Virus record (IMG/VR): IMGVR_UViG_3300010334_003522
Span: 1-25,925 of that record
Direction: 5' to 3' (one strand)
Length of the DNA: 25,925 nucleotides
DNA from: a virus
Positions 37-13,435 of this stretch are shown one piece after another; the stretch's first letter is position 1; the number at the start of each line of letters is the position of its first letter. The notes under the pieces are model-generated. The model was not told where the DNA came from. It saw nothing but the letters and a program-made list of their open reading frames with translations, and did not search any database. A program made the position numbers and the translations under genes.

Positions 37-110
37 TGCGCGGTGGAGAAACAGTAACTCGAGAGTTTCATACGCTCTAGATCTAGGTGCAATTCCTAGC
101 TGCGCACCCA
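37..110 (+). tRNA. tRNA with CAT anticodon (Met or Ile2), atypical loops
   Basis: The acceptor stem (37-43 with 100-106), anticodon stem (62-66 with 74-78), T-stem (83-87 with 95-99) and encoded CCA (108-110) all pair. The anticodon loop TTCATAC gives CAT. The T1-A72 pair and the lack of the three-GC anticodon stem argue against an initiator tRNA, leaving elongator Met or a lysidine-modified Ile(AUA) tRNA. Two things are odd: the T-loop is TGCAATT, with G where T55 (pseudouridine) is expected, and the D-loop lacks the usual GG. It may be degenerate or a phage variant. Confidence 0.75.
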
Positions 111-129
111 ATTATGATGGAGTTATAAT

Positions 130-717
130 ATGTTATTGAGTGAGATATTTGTTAATTTTATAGCATTACAAGAACTTAATCTTGATAACAAATCTATCAT
201 AGATTATTGTTATGATCTAAAAGAAAAAGATAAAGGCAGAGTTATAAGTAATATACATGGATGGCAAAGCAATGGTATTGATTGGGATAAAGAATCGCCA
301 TTGAATGAATTATTCAGCGAGTCTGAAAAAATATTCAACAATGTATATAAACATTATAAGTTCAAAAATACTTTTAAACAAGAAATTATTAATGGTTGGA
401 TTAATATAAATCAAAAAGACAACTATAATGTATTACATAGTCACCCTAGATCTTTTTTCTCTGGTGTTTATTATCCCAAAGCACCGACAAACTCAGGCAA
501 TATAGTTTTTAAAAGTCCAATAGTTGCACATGAATGGGCTATTGATGATTCTCTTGTTGAATCGTATAATGGATACAATTCATTCAATTATAGGATTGAA
601 CCAAGAGATAATATTTTTATAGTATTTCCAGCTTGGTTAGAACATCATGTTCTTCCAAATGAGTCCGATGAAGATAGAATAAGTATAGCTATTAACAGTA
701 AGGTAGTTTCGATATGA
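130..717 (+). CDS. putative 2OG-Fe(II) oxygenase
   Basis: This 195-aa protein resembles the small 2-oxoglutarate/Fe(II)-dependent oxygenases common in aquatic T4-like phages. The pattern seen is a His-rich segment near residue 100 (LHSHP) followed by SGVYYPKAP, a GNIVFKSP strand, and a C-terminal FPAWLEHHV segment leading into RISIAINS. Histidines in the first and last segments are the expected metal ligands. The family hydroxylates a protein, nucleotide or small molecule; the substrate here is unknown. The ATG follows GGAG at 119-122 with a 7-nt spacer. It overlaps the next gene by 4 nt (ATGA), so the two are probably co-translated. It lies inside the tRNA island. A structural or tail-associated role has been suggested for relatives, but nothing here shows it. 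Confidence 0.75.
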   Translation: MLLSEIFVNFIALQELNLDNKSIIDYCYDLKEKDKGRVISNIHGWQSNGIDWDKESPLNELFSESEKIFNNVYKHYKFKNTFKQEIINGWININQKDNYNVLHSHPRSFFSGVYYPKAPTNSGNIVFKSPIVAHEWAIDDSLVESYNGYNSFNYRIEPRDNIFIVFPAWLEHHVLPNESDEDRISIAINSKVVSI

Positions 718-1127
718 GAATTGGGTTTACATGTTCGGCATTTGATCTTTTACATCCAGGTCATATTGCTATGCTAGGAGAATGTAAAGAATATTGCGAT
801 CATCTGATCGTCGGTTTGCAAACTGATCCAACTATTGATCGACCAGATACAAAACAAAGACCTGTACAATCTACATTTGAAAGATATGTTCAGTTGAACT
901 CTTGTAAATTTGTAAATGAGATTATCCCATATGATACAGAGAAAGATTTAGAAAATCTTTTAGCAACTATTAGAATTGATATTCGTTTCTTAGGATATGA
1001 ATATTTCGATAAAAATTATACTGGTAAAAATATTTGTTTGTCTCGCAATATTGAGATATTTTATAATGAACCAAGATTACATAGTTTCAGTTCTACAGAA
1101 ATGAGAAACCGTCTGAAGAATTACTAA
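714..1127 (+). CDS. cytidylyltransferase-like nucleotidyltransferase
   Basis: A 137-aa protein with the cytidylyltransferase fold signature. It has an N-terminal strand (MRIGFTCSAFDLLHPGH) carrying the HxGH nucleotide-binding motif at about residues 14-17, and a C-terminal SSTEMRNR segment equivalent to the family's second motif (ISSTxIR). Length matches single-domain glycerol-3-phosphate cytidylyltransferases (TagD type, about 130 aa) and the cytidylyltransferase half of RfaE/HldE. Such enzymes join CTP or ATP to a phosphorylated small molecule. The real substrate cannot be read from sequence. The start overlaps the oxygenase stop by 4 nt, with a purine-rich TAAGG just upstream. The pair could act together in making or changing an activated sugar or polyol. 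Confidence 0.75.
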   Translation: MRIGFTCSAFDLLHPGHIAMLGECKEYCDHLIVGLQTDPTIDRPDTKQRPVQSTFERYVQLNSCKFVNEIIPYDTEKDLENLLATIRIDIRFLGYEYFDKNYTGKNICLSRNIEIFYNEPRLHSFSSTEMRNRLKNY

Positions 1128-1134
1128 AAATAAC

Positions 1135-1224
1135 GGACAGGTGGCCGAGCGGTTTATGGCTCTAGTCTTGAAAACTAGCGTAGGTGAAAGTCTACCGTGA
1201 GTTCGAATCTCACCCTGTCCGCCA
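1135..1224 (+). tRNA. tRNA-Ser(TGA)
   Basis: A type II tRNA of 90 nt starting GGACAGG, with GTGGCCGAGCGG typical of tRNA-Ser, a long variable arm (AGGTGAAAGTCTACC region) and encoded CCA at 1222-1224. The anticodon loop CTTGAAA gives TGA, reading UCA, a common codon in an AT-rich phage. Confidence 0.92.
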
Positions 1225-1272
1225 TTAACTAAATATTAACGGTTATTATGACCAAAACACTAGGAGAAACTA

Positions 1273-1920
1273 ATGAAAAATATTGTAATTACTACTGCAG
1301 CACTTCTTGTTGCAACATCTGCATTTGCTACTGATCTCCCTTCAAAGAAGAAAACTCCTCTTCCAACTCCAGCTCCAGTAGCTGCAGTTGCTCCAGCAAG
1401 CACTGATAGCTTGACTGTTTCTTATGGACAAGATCTCGGAAATAATTTCGGTGCAAAGGCTGATGATGCATATCAGCTAACATATAAGCATAACCTTGGT
1501 AATGGCTTCAGTGTTGGTGGTATGGCTAAAACCACTCAGGTATCAGGTTCACAGTTGAATCAGAATCTTGAAGTTCAGGCTGGATATGCACTTCCTGCAA
1601 TGGCTGGTGTAACTGTATCTGGTAAGGTCGGCGTTGGTGAAAAGTTCACTACTGCTAACTTCCCATACTATGCACTTTATGGCGCAGCAGACTATAAGGT
1701 TATGGACGGTCTAACTCTTAATGCAGTTCAGTATCGTTATCGTAACTCATTCGATACTGCTACTTACAGCTATGCAAGCCATCAGCTTGCAACTGGTGTC
1801 ACATATGACATCAATTCAAAGTATAGCGTAACTGCAAAGGTTGCTCGTAACTTCGACACTACCACTAGCTTTAATGCTACTGGCGATGAAGTTATGGTTG
1901 GCTTAACTGTAAAGTTTTAA
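1273..1920 (+). CDS. outer-membrane beta-barrel (porin-like) protein
   Basis: A 215-aa protein with a clear signal peptide (residues 1-19, cleavage after ATSAFA). A Lys/Pro/Ala linker follows (SKKKTPLPTPAPV) and then about 165 residues of alternating hydrophobic/polar strands such as LTVSYGQDLG, YQLTYKHNLG, FSVGGMAKT and VMVGLTVKF. It ends in Phe, the classic C-terminal signal for BAM-dependent insertion. This fits an 8-10 strand outer-membrane barrel of the Omp25/OmpW/porin type. The ATG follows AGGAG at 1262-1266. It sits between two tRNA-Ser genes on the + strand. Codon use seems shifted from its neighbours: more AAG, AAC and CAG, suggesting high expression or recent capture from a bacterium. 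A barrel encoded by a phage could replace or mask a host porin, block superinfection, or alter uptake; none of these is shown. Confidence 0.8.
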   Translation: MKNIVITTAALLVATSAFATDLPSKKKTPLPTPAPVAAVAPASTDSLTVSYGQDLGNNFGAKADDAYQLTYKHNLGNGFSVGGMAKTTQVSGSQLNQNLEVQAGYALPAMAGVTVSGKVGVGEKFTTANFPYYALYGAADYKVMDGLTLNAVQYRYRNSFDTATYSYASHQLATGVTYDINSKYSVTAKVARNFDTTTSFNATGDEVMVGLTVKF

Positions 1921-1928
1921 TAGAATAA

Positions 1929-2018
1929 GGAGAGTTGGCCGAGAGGCTTATGGCACACGTTTGCTAAATGTGCGGACTGGAAACAGTTCCGAGAGTTCGA
2001 ATCTCTCACTCTCCGCCA
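1929..2018 (+). tRNA. tRNA-Ser(GCT)
   Basis: A type II tRNA of 90 nt. Acceptor GGAGAGT pairs with ACTCTCC, followed by discriminator G and encoded CCA at 2016-2018. The anticodon loop TTGCTAA gives GCT, reading AGC/AGU. It has a long variable arm. It lies 8 nt after the barrel gene. Confidence 0.92.
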
Positions 2019-2025
2019 ATTTTGT

Positions 2026-2099
2026 ATCAGTGAAGTGTTACGGTAGCATATCGGTCTCCAAAACCGAGGGCTAGGGTTCGACTCCCTACACTGGTGCCA
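2026..2099 (+). tRNA. tRNA-Trp(CCA)
   Basis: Acceptor 2026-2032 pairs with 2089-2095 (one G-T pair), and CCA is encoded at 2097-2099. The anticodon loop CTCCAAA gives CCA. Its 3' part overlaps, on the other strand, the last codons and stop of the convergent lipase gene. Confidence 0.9.
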
Positions 2100-2826
2100 T
2101 TTTCTTAATCTTGGTGGCATATAGGCTTATACTATGATCATATATGCCATCAAACCATTCTTTTTTTGCCCATGCCCTTTTATGTGCACGCCACTTATCT
2201 TTAATACGTTGCCAACCTGTTAATTTACGTATATTTCCATAGAAATTGATATAGTGTAGCGTTCCATGGTGCTTAAACAAAAATACTGCTGGTGGAACAG
2301 TAGTTACCATATCGTTGCAGTTAACAAAACGATGATGTTCTGTTTTAAAACCTTCAACGTAAGCATGGCTTCCTACTCTTGGACTACCATAAGTAAATAA
2401 CATAGCAGTTTGTAAGTTAGCAAATTCTAACTCTTGTGTTATATAAGTTGCCATTGCAGCGCCAAGACTATGTCCTGTTAGCCATATTCTACGATTAGGA
2501 TATTTTCTAATATAATTAAAAATTAGTGGAAGAATTTTTCTAGCTTCGCGTCTGAAACCTTCATGGACAAATCCTTCACCGTGACGTTTTGGAATTGTAT
2601 CGATATCAGCTAACAGATCATTAGCTTTAGTTGGTTGTGTGCCACGACATGTTATAATCATATCAGTTTCGTTACATGCAGCATGACCTTGTGCTCCTAG
2701 ATTATCAAAGAACACATAGTTTTCTAAACCTAATTTTTCGAAATCTTCTTCGCAATCATCTTTATAGGCAGCTCCTGCCAGTGATGCAAATATATACGCT
2801 TTTTCTAAGAAAGGCAAATCTATCAT
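2086..2826 (-). CDS. class 3 (alpha/beta hydrolase) lipase
   Basis: A 246-aa protein with the lipase_3 pattern. The nucleophile elbow GHSLG puts Ser at residue 120. The catalytic Asp is probably D172 in NDMVTTVPP and the catalytic His H231 in YDHSI. The upstream TCRGTQ segment supplies the oxyanion region, and YGSPRVG after the elbow is typical of this family. These enzymes hydrolyse acylglycerols or phospholipids. No signal peptide is seen, so it should act in the cytoplasm or be released at lysis. It is the only - strand gene within the tRNA island. It has its own late promoter box 36 nt upstream and GGAG before the ATG, so late expression is likely. Its last codons and TAG stop lie within the antisense of tRNA-Trp. 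Possible jobs are attack on host membrane lipid at lysis or lipid turnover. Confidence 0.88.
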   Translation of the reverse strand: MIDLPFLEKAYIFASLAGAAYKDDCEEDFEKLGLENYVFFDNLGAQGHAACNETDMIITCRGTQPTKANDLLADIDTIPKRHGEGFVHEGFRREARKILPLIFNYIRKYPNRRIWLTGHSLGAAMATYITQELEFANLQTAMLFTYGSPRVGSHAYVEGFKTEHHRFVNCNDMVTTVPPAVFLFKHHGTLHYINFYGNIRKLTGWQRIKDKWRAHKRAWAKKEWFDGIYDHSISLYATKIKKMAPV

Positions 2827-2861
2827 AATAATTCTCCAATGACTATATAGTATGTTACTGC

Positions 2862-2869
2862 TATTTATA
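2862..2869 (-). promoter_or_regulatory. T4-type late promoter box (TATAAATA) for the lipase gene
   Basis: An exact TATAAATA octamer on the - strand, 36 nt before the lipase ATG and in an intergenic gap. This is the sequence used by T4 gp55/gp33-type late transcription. On the + strand the same DNA sits just before the AGGAG of the 64-aa gene. Confidence 0.7.
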
Positions 2870-2879
2870 GGAGAATGAT

Positions 2880-3074
2880 ATGGAAGAGTTTAACAAATTC
2901 ATTGGTGAAAGCTATTCAGCAGTCAATGAACAAATTACCGATCTTGCTAACAAGAAAGGTATTACGTCTGTATATCCATGGCCAGAACACATTGGCGGAT
3001 ATGATTCTGACGAAAGCACTCTTGTTGTATTCATAAATAATGATATAGAACAAAAGATAGTAAAATTTAAATAA
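2880..3074 (+). CDS. hypothetical 64-aa protein
   Basis: Not recognised. It is a small acidic protein with an N-terminal helix (FNKFIGESYSAVNEQI), a YPWPEH turn and a C-terminal pair of strands (TLVVFINNDIEQKIVKF). It starts 10 nt after a good AGGAG (2869-2873) and ends 1 nt before tRNA-Val, which supports it as a real gene in the + strand island. The opposite-strand frame over the same bases has no such start and is a shadow. Confidence 0.6.
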   Translation: MEEFNKFIGESYSAVNEQITDLANKKGITSVYPWPEHIGGYDSDESTLVVFINNDIEQKIVKFK

Positions 3075-3075
3075 T

Positions 3076-3151
3076 GGTCGGTTAGCTCTGTTGGTAGAGG
3101 ATCTCGCTTACACCGAGAATGTCGGCGGTTCGAGCCCGTCACCGACTACCA
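3076..3151 (+). tRNA. tRNA-Val(TAC)
   Basis: A 76-nt cloverleaf with acceptor GGTCGGT/ACCGACT and encoded CCA at 3149-3151. The anticodon loop CTTACAC gives TAC, reading GUA. It is the first of three tandem tRNAs spaced 5 nt apart. Confidence 0.92.
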
Positions 3152-3156
3152 ATAAT

Positions 3157-3231
3157 GCGGATGTAGCTCAGTGGTAGAGCACTTGCTTGCCAAGCAAGAT
3201 GTCGTGGGTTCGACCCCCATCGTCCGCTCCA
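3157..3231 (+). tRNA. tRNA-Gly(GCC)
   Basis: A 75-nt cloverleaf with acceptor GCGGATG/CGTCCGC and encoded CCA at 3229-3231. The anticodon loop TTGCCAA gives GCC, reading GGC/GGU. Confidence 0.93.
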
Positions 3232-3236
3232 ATTTC

Positions 3237-3311
3237 GGGGAATTAATGCTAGTGGTAACATGTCTGCCTTGCACGCAGAATTCAGCGGTTCGATTCCGCT
3301 ATTCTCCACCA
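3237..3311 (+). tRNA. tRNA-Ala(TGC)
   Basis: A 75-nt cloverleaf with acceptor GGGGAAT/ATTCTCC and encoded CCA at 3309-3311. The anticodon loop CTTGCAC gives TGC. It marks the end of the + strand island: the next gene converges on it from the other strand, one base away. Confidence 0.92.
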
Positions 3312-12049: not shown

Positions 12050-12124
12050 TGGTGGACCGAGCAGGATTCGAACCTGCGCTCGCACTGTTATGAGCAGTGA
12101 GCCTTACCGCTTGGCTATCGGTCC
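12050..12124 (-). tRNA. tRNA with CAT anticodon (Met or Ile2)
   Basis: A regular 75-nt cloverleaf: acceptor GGACCGA/TCGGTCC, D-stem GCC/GGC, anticodon stem CACTG/CAGTG with loop CTCATAA, T-loop TTCGAAT, discriminator A and encoded CCA. It is not an initiator (G1-C72 pair). Elongator Met and lysidine-Ile2 cannot be told apart by eye. Its 5' base is shared with the stop codon of the upstream DUF458 gene. Confidence 0.92.
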
Positions 12125-12594
12125 TAAGCTGCTAAAACTTCTTTAAGCCTATCTGCTGCATAGGAAGCAGCGAAAGCGTTGGGTTTAACAAGTGGTATAA
12201 CGTTACACATACCCCTAATATATCCGGTAGCTTCATTAATAACACAAAAAGAACCGTGGTGTTCATCAGGATTGATATCAAGATGTACTTCCACATGGCG
12301 ATCCTCCAATACTTCTGCTAGTTTTAAATATAATTCAGCAATCTTATATACTTCATTCATAAGACGTAATCGTGGCTTATCTTTCTGCTGATCGTAATCA
12401 CGTTCACGAACTACTTCACCAAAGATTTTACAGCCACGATTGCCATTATAATGAACAACGATAGCGAGAGTGTAATCAGCATACCACAATTTATCAATCA
12501 TAAAACGTTCAGAATCTCCACCAAGATATATCTTTGTTTCTGGAGGCTGATTTAGAATAAACTGTTTAACTTCTTCGATATCGATCTTTTTCAT
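12124..12594 (-). CDS. DUF458/YkuK-like RNase H-fold protein
   Basis: A 156-aa protein. The pattern KIYLGGDSERF at residues 21-31, YTLAIVVHYNGNRGCKIF, RLMNEVYKIAELYL, VEVHLDINPDEHHGS and VKPNAFAASYAADR matches the DUF458 (YkuK) family, which is predicted to have an RNase H-like fold. Conserved Asp in GGDS and in HLDINPD would be metal ligands. It may be a nuclease, but activity has not been generally shown. It starts 5 nt after the 30-aa basic gene and ends one base into the CAT tRNA. Confidence 0.75.
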   Translation of the reverse strand: MKKIDIEEVKQFILNQPPETKIYLGGDSERFMIDKLWYADYTLAIVVHYNGNRGCKIFGEVVRERDYDQQKDKPRLRLMNEVYKIAELYLKLAEVLEDRHVEVHLDINPDEHHGSFCVINEATGYIRGMCNVIPLVKPNAFAASYAADRLKEVLAA

Positions 12595-12599
12595 TTTAT

Positions 12600-12692
12600 T
12601 TACTTCTTTTTATTATTTTTTCTTGCTTTGCGTTTCGCAGAACCAATTTTACGCCGACCCTTACGAGGTCTATTTTTATGAGGATGCGCCAT
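12600..12692 (-). CDS. 30-aa very basic protein
   Basis: A small ORF found by reading the gap. AAGGAG lies 8 nt before the ATG, followed by 30 codons and TAA. About half of the residues are Lys or Arg, with a core RPRKGRRKIGSAKRKARKN. It resembles ribosomal-protein-like or nucleic-acid-binding tails. It lies directly behind tRNA-Leu(TAA) and 5 nt before the DUF458 gene. The strong ribosome binding site and clean spacing support it. A nucleic-acid or ribosome-binding role is inference from charge alone. Confidence 0.7.
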   Translation of the reverse strand: MAHPHKNRPRKGRRKIGSAKRKARKNNKKK

Positions 12693-12709
12693 TATATACT
12701 CCTTTTATT

Positions 12710-12785
12710 TGGTGCCCACGGTCAGACTCGAACTGACACTTTGGAGATTTTAAGTCTCCTACCTCTGCCATTGGGTTACGTGGGC
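12710..12785 (-). tRNA. tRNA with TAA anticodon (Leu), short variable loop
   Basis: A 76-nt cloverleaf: acceptor GCCCACG/CGTGGGC, 3-bp D-stem ACC/GGT, anticodon stem GGAGA/TCTCC with loop CTTAAAA, T-stem GTCAG/CTGAC, discriminator A and encoded CCA. The anticodon TAA reads UUA. The variable loop is only 5 nt (AAAGT), whereas bacterial tRNA-Leu normally has a long variable arm. Confidence 0.85.
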
Positions 12786-12823: not shown

Positions 12824-13237
12824 TTAAATCTTAACGTGAGCTTTATGTATTTTTACAGAGATCCATGAATTATAATACATGTCACTTTCCAATACCTTAT
12901 TCTCAAATTGCTGTTTAGCTTCCCAGTAATTACATTCGCCTTTGGTTTTACAAAGTCTCAATACAACTCTTCTAAACTGATCTGCTCCGATTTTTTCAAC
13001 ATCTTCCTGTAATTCTTTATTAGAACCATAATATATTTTCCAATCAGAAGCAATTTTAACTTTTTTCTTTTTTCCTTTTATGCTTTTCGTTCTAGAGAAT
13101 TTGAAAAGCTTTTTACCAATATACATACGTTGATTTGTAAGATTGGTTATCATGTAGATGAAACCTACATAATCTTCTATTATTTCTTCTTTTAATGGTA
13201 TACCATAGTAAAGCCATGGATTTTCATAATCAGACAT
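12824..13237 (-). CDS. GIY-YIG nuclease-like protein
   Basis: A 137-aa protein. GFIYMITNLTNQRMYIGKK at about residues 25-43 is the GIY-YIG signature. Then come a Lys-rich block (KSIKGKKKKVKIASDWKIYYGS), a conserved LCKTKGECNYWEAKQQFE with the likely metal-binding Glu, and YYNSWI. It could be a free-standing homing endonuclease or a DNA-processing nuclease kept in T4-like phages; no extra DNA-binding domain is seen, which favours the second. Translation seems controlled: the ribosome binding site sits in a hairpin overlapped by a late promoter box. Confidence 0.8.
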   Translation of the reverse strand: MSDYENPWLYYGIPLKEEIIEDYVGFIYMITNLTNQRMYIGKKLFKFSRTKSIKGKKKKVKIASDWKIYYGSNKELQEDVEKIGADQFRRVVLRLCKTKGECNYWEAKQQFENKVLESDMYYNSWISVKIHKAHVKI

Positions 13238-13239
13238 AT

Positions 13240-13257
13240 GGGGTAACTCCTTACCCC
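13240..13257 (-). promoter_or_regulatory. hairpin holding the ribosome binding site of the GIY-YIG gene
   Basis: On the - strand a perfect 7-bp stem (GGGGTAA with TTACCCC) has the 4-nt loop GGAG, two bases before the ATG. The Shine-Dalgarno AAGGAG is formed by the stem end and the loop, so the start region is folded in any transcript that carries the full stem. Confidence 0.7.
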
Positions 13258-13258
13258 G

Positions 13259-13266
13259 TATTTATT
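13259..13266 (-). promoter_or_regulatory. candidate late promoter box (AATAAATA) overlapping the hairpin
   Basis: An NATAAATA octamer on the - strand, directly between the zinc-ribbon stop and the hairpin. A start 6-7 nt after the box would fall at about 13252-13253, inside the left arm of the hairpin. Confidence 0.55.
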
Positions 13267-13267
13267 C

Positions 13268-13435
13268 TCAGAAACGATCTTTGTCCTGATCATCCCATTC
13301 ATCTTCATCTTCAAACTTCTCTGTCTTAGTAAGTTTTGAAGAGCAGAATGGGCAATACTCAGGTTCGTTTACAGTATCATGAATGATTTCAAATTCAGCT
13401 TCACACTCTGTGCAAGTGATTATACTATCAGCCAT
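13268..13435 (-). CDS. small zinc-ribbon protein
   Basis: A 55-aa protein found by reading the gap. It has two knuckles, CTEC at residues 8-11 and CPFC at about 28-31, which would hold one zinc, and an acidic tail (FEDEDEWDDQDKD). AAGGAG lies before the ATG within the last codons of the nuclease gene. Small zinc ribbons of this kind are common in T4-like phages and may bind DNA, RNA or polymerase. It is the last gene of the nrd-nuclease unit before the GIY-YIG hairpin. Confidence 0.75.
   Translation of the reverse strand: MADSIITCTECEAEFEIIHDTVNEPEYCPFCSSKLTKTEKFEDEDEWDDQDKDRF

Follow-up and report, generated by a model that had tools for sequence, protein, structure and literature searches.

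Is the inverted repeat that encloses the ribosome binding site of a small nuclease gene, directly behind a late-promoter-like box, a switch that keeps translation off early in infection and turns it on late, as known from phage T4? The locus lies in a virus record of 25.9 kb (25,925 nt; IMG/VR IMGVR_UViG_3300010334_003522), the whole stretch of DNA analysed here and hereafter the window, which probably comes from a T4-like phage. A first-pass annotation, made from the letters of the window, had proposed such an early-off/late-on switch. We consider a T4-type switch at this gene very probable: comparison with relatives supports it through covariation of the hairpin arms, the joint occurrence of box and stem and the distribution of TAAATA in the cultured phage S-CREM1, while the RNA ends and their timing are what we infer.

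Hairpin and box in the window

The features of the locus, all on the minus strand, are as follows.

12824 to 13237, minus strand: GIY-YIG nuclease gene, 137 aa, PF19835 SegE_GIY-YIG / phrog_447 (profile matches)
13236 to 13238, minus strand: TAT overlapping the start codon, able to pair with the ATA at the end of the box, 13259 to 13261 (fold)
13240 to 13246, minus strand: right arm of the hairpin, TTACCCC (sequence, fold, compensatory changes in relatives)
13247 to 13250, minus strand: loop GGAG; the Shine-Dalgarno sequence (SD) AAGGAG is this loop preceded by the AA at the end of the left arm (sequence)
13251 to 13257, minus strand: left arm of the hairpin, GGGGTAA (sequence, fold, covariation with the right arm in relatives)
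13252 to 13253, minus strand: predicted late transcription start, within the left arm (from T4 spacing)
13259 to 13266, minus strand: putative late-promoter box, AATAAATA (sequence; box kept in relatives)
13268 to 13435, minus strand: upstream gene, 55 aa, zinc-ribbon-like with an acidic tail (weak Pfam match below the curated cut-off)

Read directly on the minus strand, positions 13270-13235 are TGA GAATAAATAC GGGGTAA GGAG TTACCCC AT ATG, where the stop codon of the 55-aa gene adjoins the box and two bases separate the right arm from the ATG at 13237. The perfect 7-bp stem, the GGAG loop and the 2-nt distance to the start codon had thus been described exactly in the first-pass annotation, as had the position of the box. 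The fold adds an extension of the stem, a possible pairing of the ATA at 13261-13259 with T13238, A13237 and T13236 that reaches two bases into the start codon.

The predicted folding energy of the leader is -11.6 kcal/mol, that of its shuffles -5.3 +/- 2.3 (z-score -2.8; 1 of 200 shuffles does as well), and no other of the 28 gene starts of the window has so stable a local fold, the runner-up standing at -7.7 kcal/mol. A GGAG loop closed by seven perfect base pairs occurs once against 0.17 expected in the shuffled window on both strands, and TAAATA, with 33 sites against 43 expected in this AT-rich DNA, is not enriched. The significance of the element has to be drawn from its relatives; taken alone, the window is suggestive, not conclusive.

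Arms, box and stem in relatives

Five family members, used as queries, yielded 395 usable loci, among which 188 leaders are distinct. In these leaders we counted 41 distinct arm pairs, and the majority of stem positions from +1 to +8 show standard pairs of four or five types. The mean stem score is 21.2 for native leaders and falls to 11.3 +/- 0.55 when the 3' halves are swapped between phages. MAFFT alignment of leaders with unequal spacing misplaced the stems, so these counts were made by script in the register of the stem and repeated on an ungapped subset of 12 leaders. There 100% of the cells are paired, and covariation scores 0.461; shuffling gives 0.119, and sliding the partners no more than 0.231. 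A covariance model was also built and left unused, as a pattern scan with free arms is the cleaner test. In that scan of IMG/VR viral contigs, the pattern kept box, SD core and ATG constant and left four bases per arm free; the gene class of each match was set by motif and by eye. There were 104 matches, 70 of them fully complementary, and 69 of these 70, many closely related, lie before a gene of the GIY-YIG family; the remaining one is AT-rich and precedes an unrelated gene. None of the 34 incompletely paired matches stands before a family gene, and before other genes complementarity is at the level of chance, with one exception. The comparison for compensatory changes, which had been proposed as a check on the hairpin, is therefore passed strongly by the arm pairs, the swap, the ungapped subset and the pattern scan alike.

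This covariation bears on two other readings of the locus. The inverted repeat could be a DNA operator: with a repressor, for which the nuclease is one candidate, bound to the palindrome that overlies the late promoter, the gene would stay off; I-TevI does repress its own late promoter through an overlapping operator (PMC2988022), and the repeat here likewise overlaps the predicted promoter. A protein that reads sequence would, however, keep the letters, and the 41 arm sequences differ yet pair; moreover, no operator needs an SD in the loop or a stem that reaches the start codon. We regard an operator as very unlikely. The second is that a GC-rich hairpin and an AT-rich hexamer have come to lie side by side by accident, for which the many TAAATA sites of the window and the scant genome-wide excess of hairpins flush with TAAATA (see below) could be cited; covariation across dozens of relatives already refutes this for the family and leaves it hardly credible for the locus. 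Both readings are rejected on the covariation.

The box and the stem also go together. A TAAATA or TAAGTA box lies upstream in 76 of the 188 distinct leaders, and 70 of these 76 possess a strong stem whose end is close to the start codon and which in 65 of the 70 starts within 3 bases of the end of the box. Of the 112 leaders without the box, 100 have no stem and 12 have one, five of the latter with a TATATA form of the box; TATATA[GC] was dropped as a box, as it is also found in the tail of the upstream coding sequence. The association of box and stem gives a Fisher's p of ~2e-31 over sequences that are related to one another. Along the protein tree there are 22 changes of the box and 20 of the stem, and with correction for phylogeny the trend is the same, the independent pairs agreeing in 4.2 cases and disagreeing in 0.4 (median p 0.125, underpowered).

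The layout of the locus changes as well. Hairpin leaders occupy an intergenic gap of ~28 nt that box and hairpin fill, and in most of them the purine-rich SD is located in the loop; the final A of the box takes part in pairing in 40 of the 46 unique cores, a pairing of box with start codon common to most relatives. For 114 non-hairpin leaders the upstream gene could be identified, and 82 of them overlap that gene or come close to touching it; many marine family members combine such an overlap with neither box nor stem. Homologous leaders that lose the stem without compensation had been named in the first-pass annotation as a finding that would speak against the switch. Stem loss does occur, but together with promoter loss, and mostly with a change to the overlapping layout, which answers that objection.

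Probable late promoter and predicted messages

The T4 late box has the consensus TATAAATA, and its form in cyanophage S-PM2 is NATAAATA (PMC2984593, PMC2988020), which is present at 13266-13259 on the minus strand of the window. The ACTAAATA form of the box in the nearest relatives fits the consensus published for Aeh1 (PMC2988020). The isolate S-CREM1 carries the element as CATAAATA-CCTCTAA-GAGA-TTAGAGG. In this phage 18 of 30 structural genes, but only 2 of 93 early/hypothetical or replication genes, have TAAATA in the 70 nt before them, a distribution that suggests that it behaves as a late promoter. Homologues of the late sigma factor gp55 are encoded by S-CREM1, S-SCSM1 and two large metagenomic genomes (G007 and G009), all four of which carry the element; the gp55 gene is absent from the 25.9-kb fragment of the window. 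Genome-wide, hairpins flush with TAAATA number 24 of 989, with 1.1-1.9% for control hexamers. As this is no clear excess, the element belongs to particular genes and not to late promoters in general.

It might still be that the hairpin is a constant damper of translation, or an element of RNA stability, and that the adjoining TAAATA is not a promoter. Start-site hairpins reduce translation without any promoter, the late start at this one is predicted rather than mapped, and some family leaders have neither box nor stem and are presumably translated. A constant damper, however, gives no account of box and stem being gained and lost together in the family, of the short distance that separates them, or of TAAATA marking the structural genes of S-CREM1, and we consider it improbable.

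For the early-off/late-on switch, the course of events would be as follows. Read-through messages from the upstream nrd and nuclease genes would carry the whole hairpin, which would hold the SD in a tight loop and tie up part of the start codon, and the nuclease would be poorly made from them. In the fold of the long RNA of the window the four loop bases GGAG are formally unpaired, so hiding must rest on the constrained loop, the pairing of the AA in AAGGAG and that of part of the start codon; repression by these three together we infer. Late in infection, a polymerase with a gp55-type sigma would start at the AATAAATA box at about 13253/13252, as predicted by the T4 convention in which the box spans -13 to -6 (PMC2988020). 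The resulting RNA would be without most of the left arm, the hairpin could not form, and AAGGAG would be exposed 9 nt before the AUG. Both forms of the leader were folded, as had been advised earlier. The mean folding energy, -19.3 kcal/mol for the long form, weakens to -5.8 kcal/mol after truncation at the predicted start, and in 42 of 46 leaders the initiation region becomes open, but control leaders are also more open when cut (95 of 112), and the energy argument therefore ranks below covariation.

The same arrangement is known from T4. In genes e and soc the late box lies immediately 5' of the left arm or inside it, and the hairpin covers the SD and/or the AUG on a long early RNA, the late RNA being without the left arm (PMC3014915). 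When we folded these leaders, the stem of gene e was found to start in the ATA of the box; in soc the loop contains AAGGAG and the stem the ATG, the same geometry as in the GIY-YIG leader. For the latter, a hairpin over the SD and/or start codon of the long transcript is borne out by fold and covariation; a late promoter placed to leave out the 5' arm is indicated by its sequence only. The likeness to e, soc and I-TevI drawn in the first-pass annotation thus holds in logic (PMC2988022, PMC3014915). Its further suggestion, that an SD forming the loop itself is new, falls, since that geometry is already found in soc. What differs is the gene, its place beside nrd genes and the divergence of the arms of the GIY-YIG leader in many phages, which leaves their pairing intact. 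The switches of e and soc are experimentally supported, whereas the present one is known from sequence comparison.

Nuclease genes are also among the known cases. I-TevI, I-TevII, I-TevIII and segB of T4 and mobE of Aeromonas phage Aeh1 lie on larger early or middle transcripts and have a hairpin at the ribosome binding site with a promoter placed for late escape (PMC2988022); the title of a paper by Gibb and Edgell places mobE, too, in an nrd cluster. In the seg43(25) leader of Aeromonas phage 25 the hairpin leaves the ribosome binding site free (PMC2988022). The former are mobile endonucleases, whereas the protein here has 137 aa and is mostly catalytic domain. The mechanism itself being known from T4, what is new is the gene, of a nuclease family widespread in cyanophages, and the breadth of the comparative evidence; in reviews of the T4 examples we found none of such a kind as the 41 arm pairs. 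Such a switch, familiar mainly from a few genes of the T4 group, would thereby extend to a gene that is widespread among T4-like cyanophages and their freshwater relatives. As two cultured Synechococcus phages, S-SCSM1 and S-CREM1, carry the element, a direct check of the switch is possible.

The nuclease, its neighbours and variant leaders

The 137-aa protein matches PF19835 over residues 8-126 (5e-40). It has the GIY-YIG catalytic domain expected of a homing endonuclease, with the motif residues, R90, E106 and N123 invariant in 11 diverse family members, and it is barely more than that domain; no solved structure resembling it was found by sequence. The family (phrog_447) is present in 463 phage records, mostly of cyanophages. 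Its small size and wide presence would be unlike a typical mobile endonuclease, and if the switch is true, the nuclease would not be made early, which makes its role testable. The cyanophage family phrog_447 / T4-GC 213, to which the gene of the window belongs, is called 'NAD synthetase' in many GenBank records. Pfam finds a GIY-YIG nuclease domain only, and we regard this database name as misleading. An 'NAD synthetase' is counted among cyanophage metabolic genes (PMC7238727), and that entry may refer to phrog_447.

The nuclease gene stands last in a same-strand run that comprises thymidylate synthase (td), nrdA, a phrog_3704 'ferredoxin', nrdB, a phosphoesterase, a non-specific nuclease and the 55-aa protein. 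No convincing terminator was found on that strand between the run and the GIY-YIG gene, and no early promoter for the upstream unit was identified with confidence. The zinc-ribbon-like gene overlaps the nuclease gene in many relatives, and the two proteins are a possible functional pair. An Rfam scan of the window returned tRNAs only, nine genes at 37-3308 on the plus strand and 12053-12785 on the minus strand, two of which lie just downstream of the GIY-YIG gene on its strand. A nucleotide search of phage isolates for near relatives gave matches to nrdB only.

Other leaders show related designs. In five of the family (L333, L363, L368, L369 and L374), TAAATA is flush with a GC-rich hairpin that is followed by T7-8 and then by the ATG, an order that suggests a terminator fused with a late promoter in its 5' arm. 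Such a hairpin would terminate early RNA, and late RNA, begun inside the 5' arm, would escape termination, making a promoter-in-terminator switch. Tentatively, and with rather more doubt than conviction, we propose that the family swaps layouts at one site, among a hairpin over the ribosome binding site with a late promoter, an overlap with the upstream gene and this fusion.

Box-flush hairpins also precede other genes. In the contig of the closest long relative (G001), the minus-strand endolysin gene, with its box at 44086 and its start at 44041, has AATAAATA flush with a 9-bp hairpin and then TTTTT, upstream of a free SD; the arrangement is similar to the fused form of the five family leaders and may be compared with T4 gene e. 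In G007 such hairpins cover the SD at starts 43409 (minus), 125956 (plus) and 152960 (plus), before two homing-endonuclease-like genes (phrog_314) and one tail-tube-like gene (phrog_45). Similar leaders occur before a possible glycosyltransferase gene of G009 and the portal gene of S-CREM1; at this portal gene, as at the G001 endolysin, the hairpin does not cover the SD. Over the same genomes, very strong stems at boxed starts were seen 9 times against 0.7 expected, and four of the nine belong to the GIY-YIG family.
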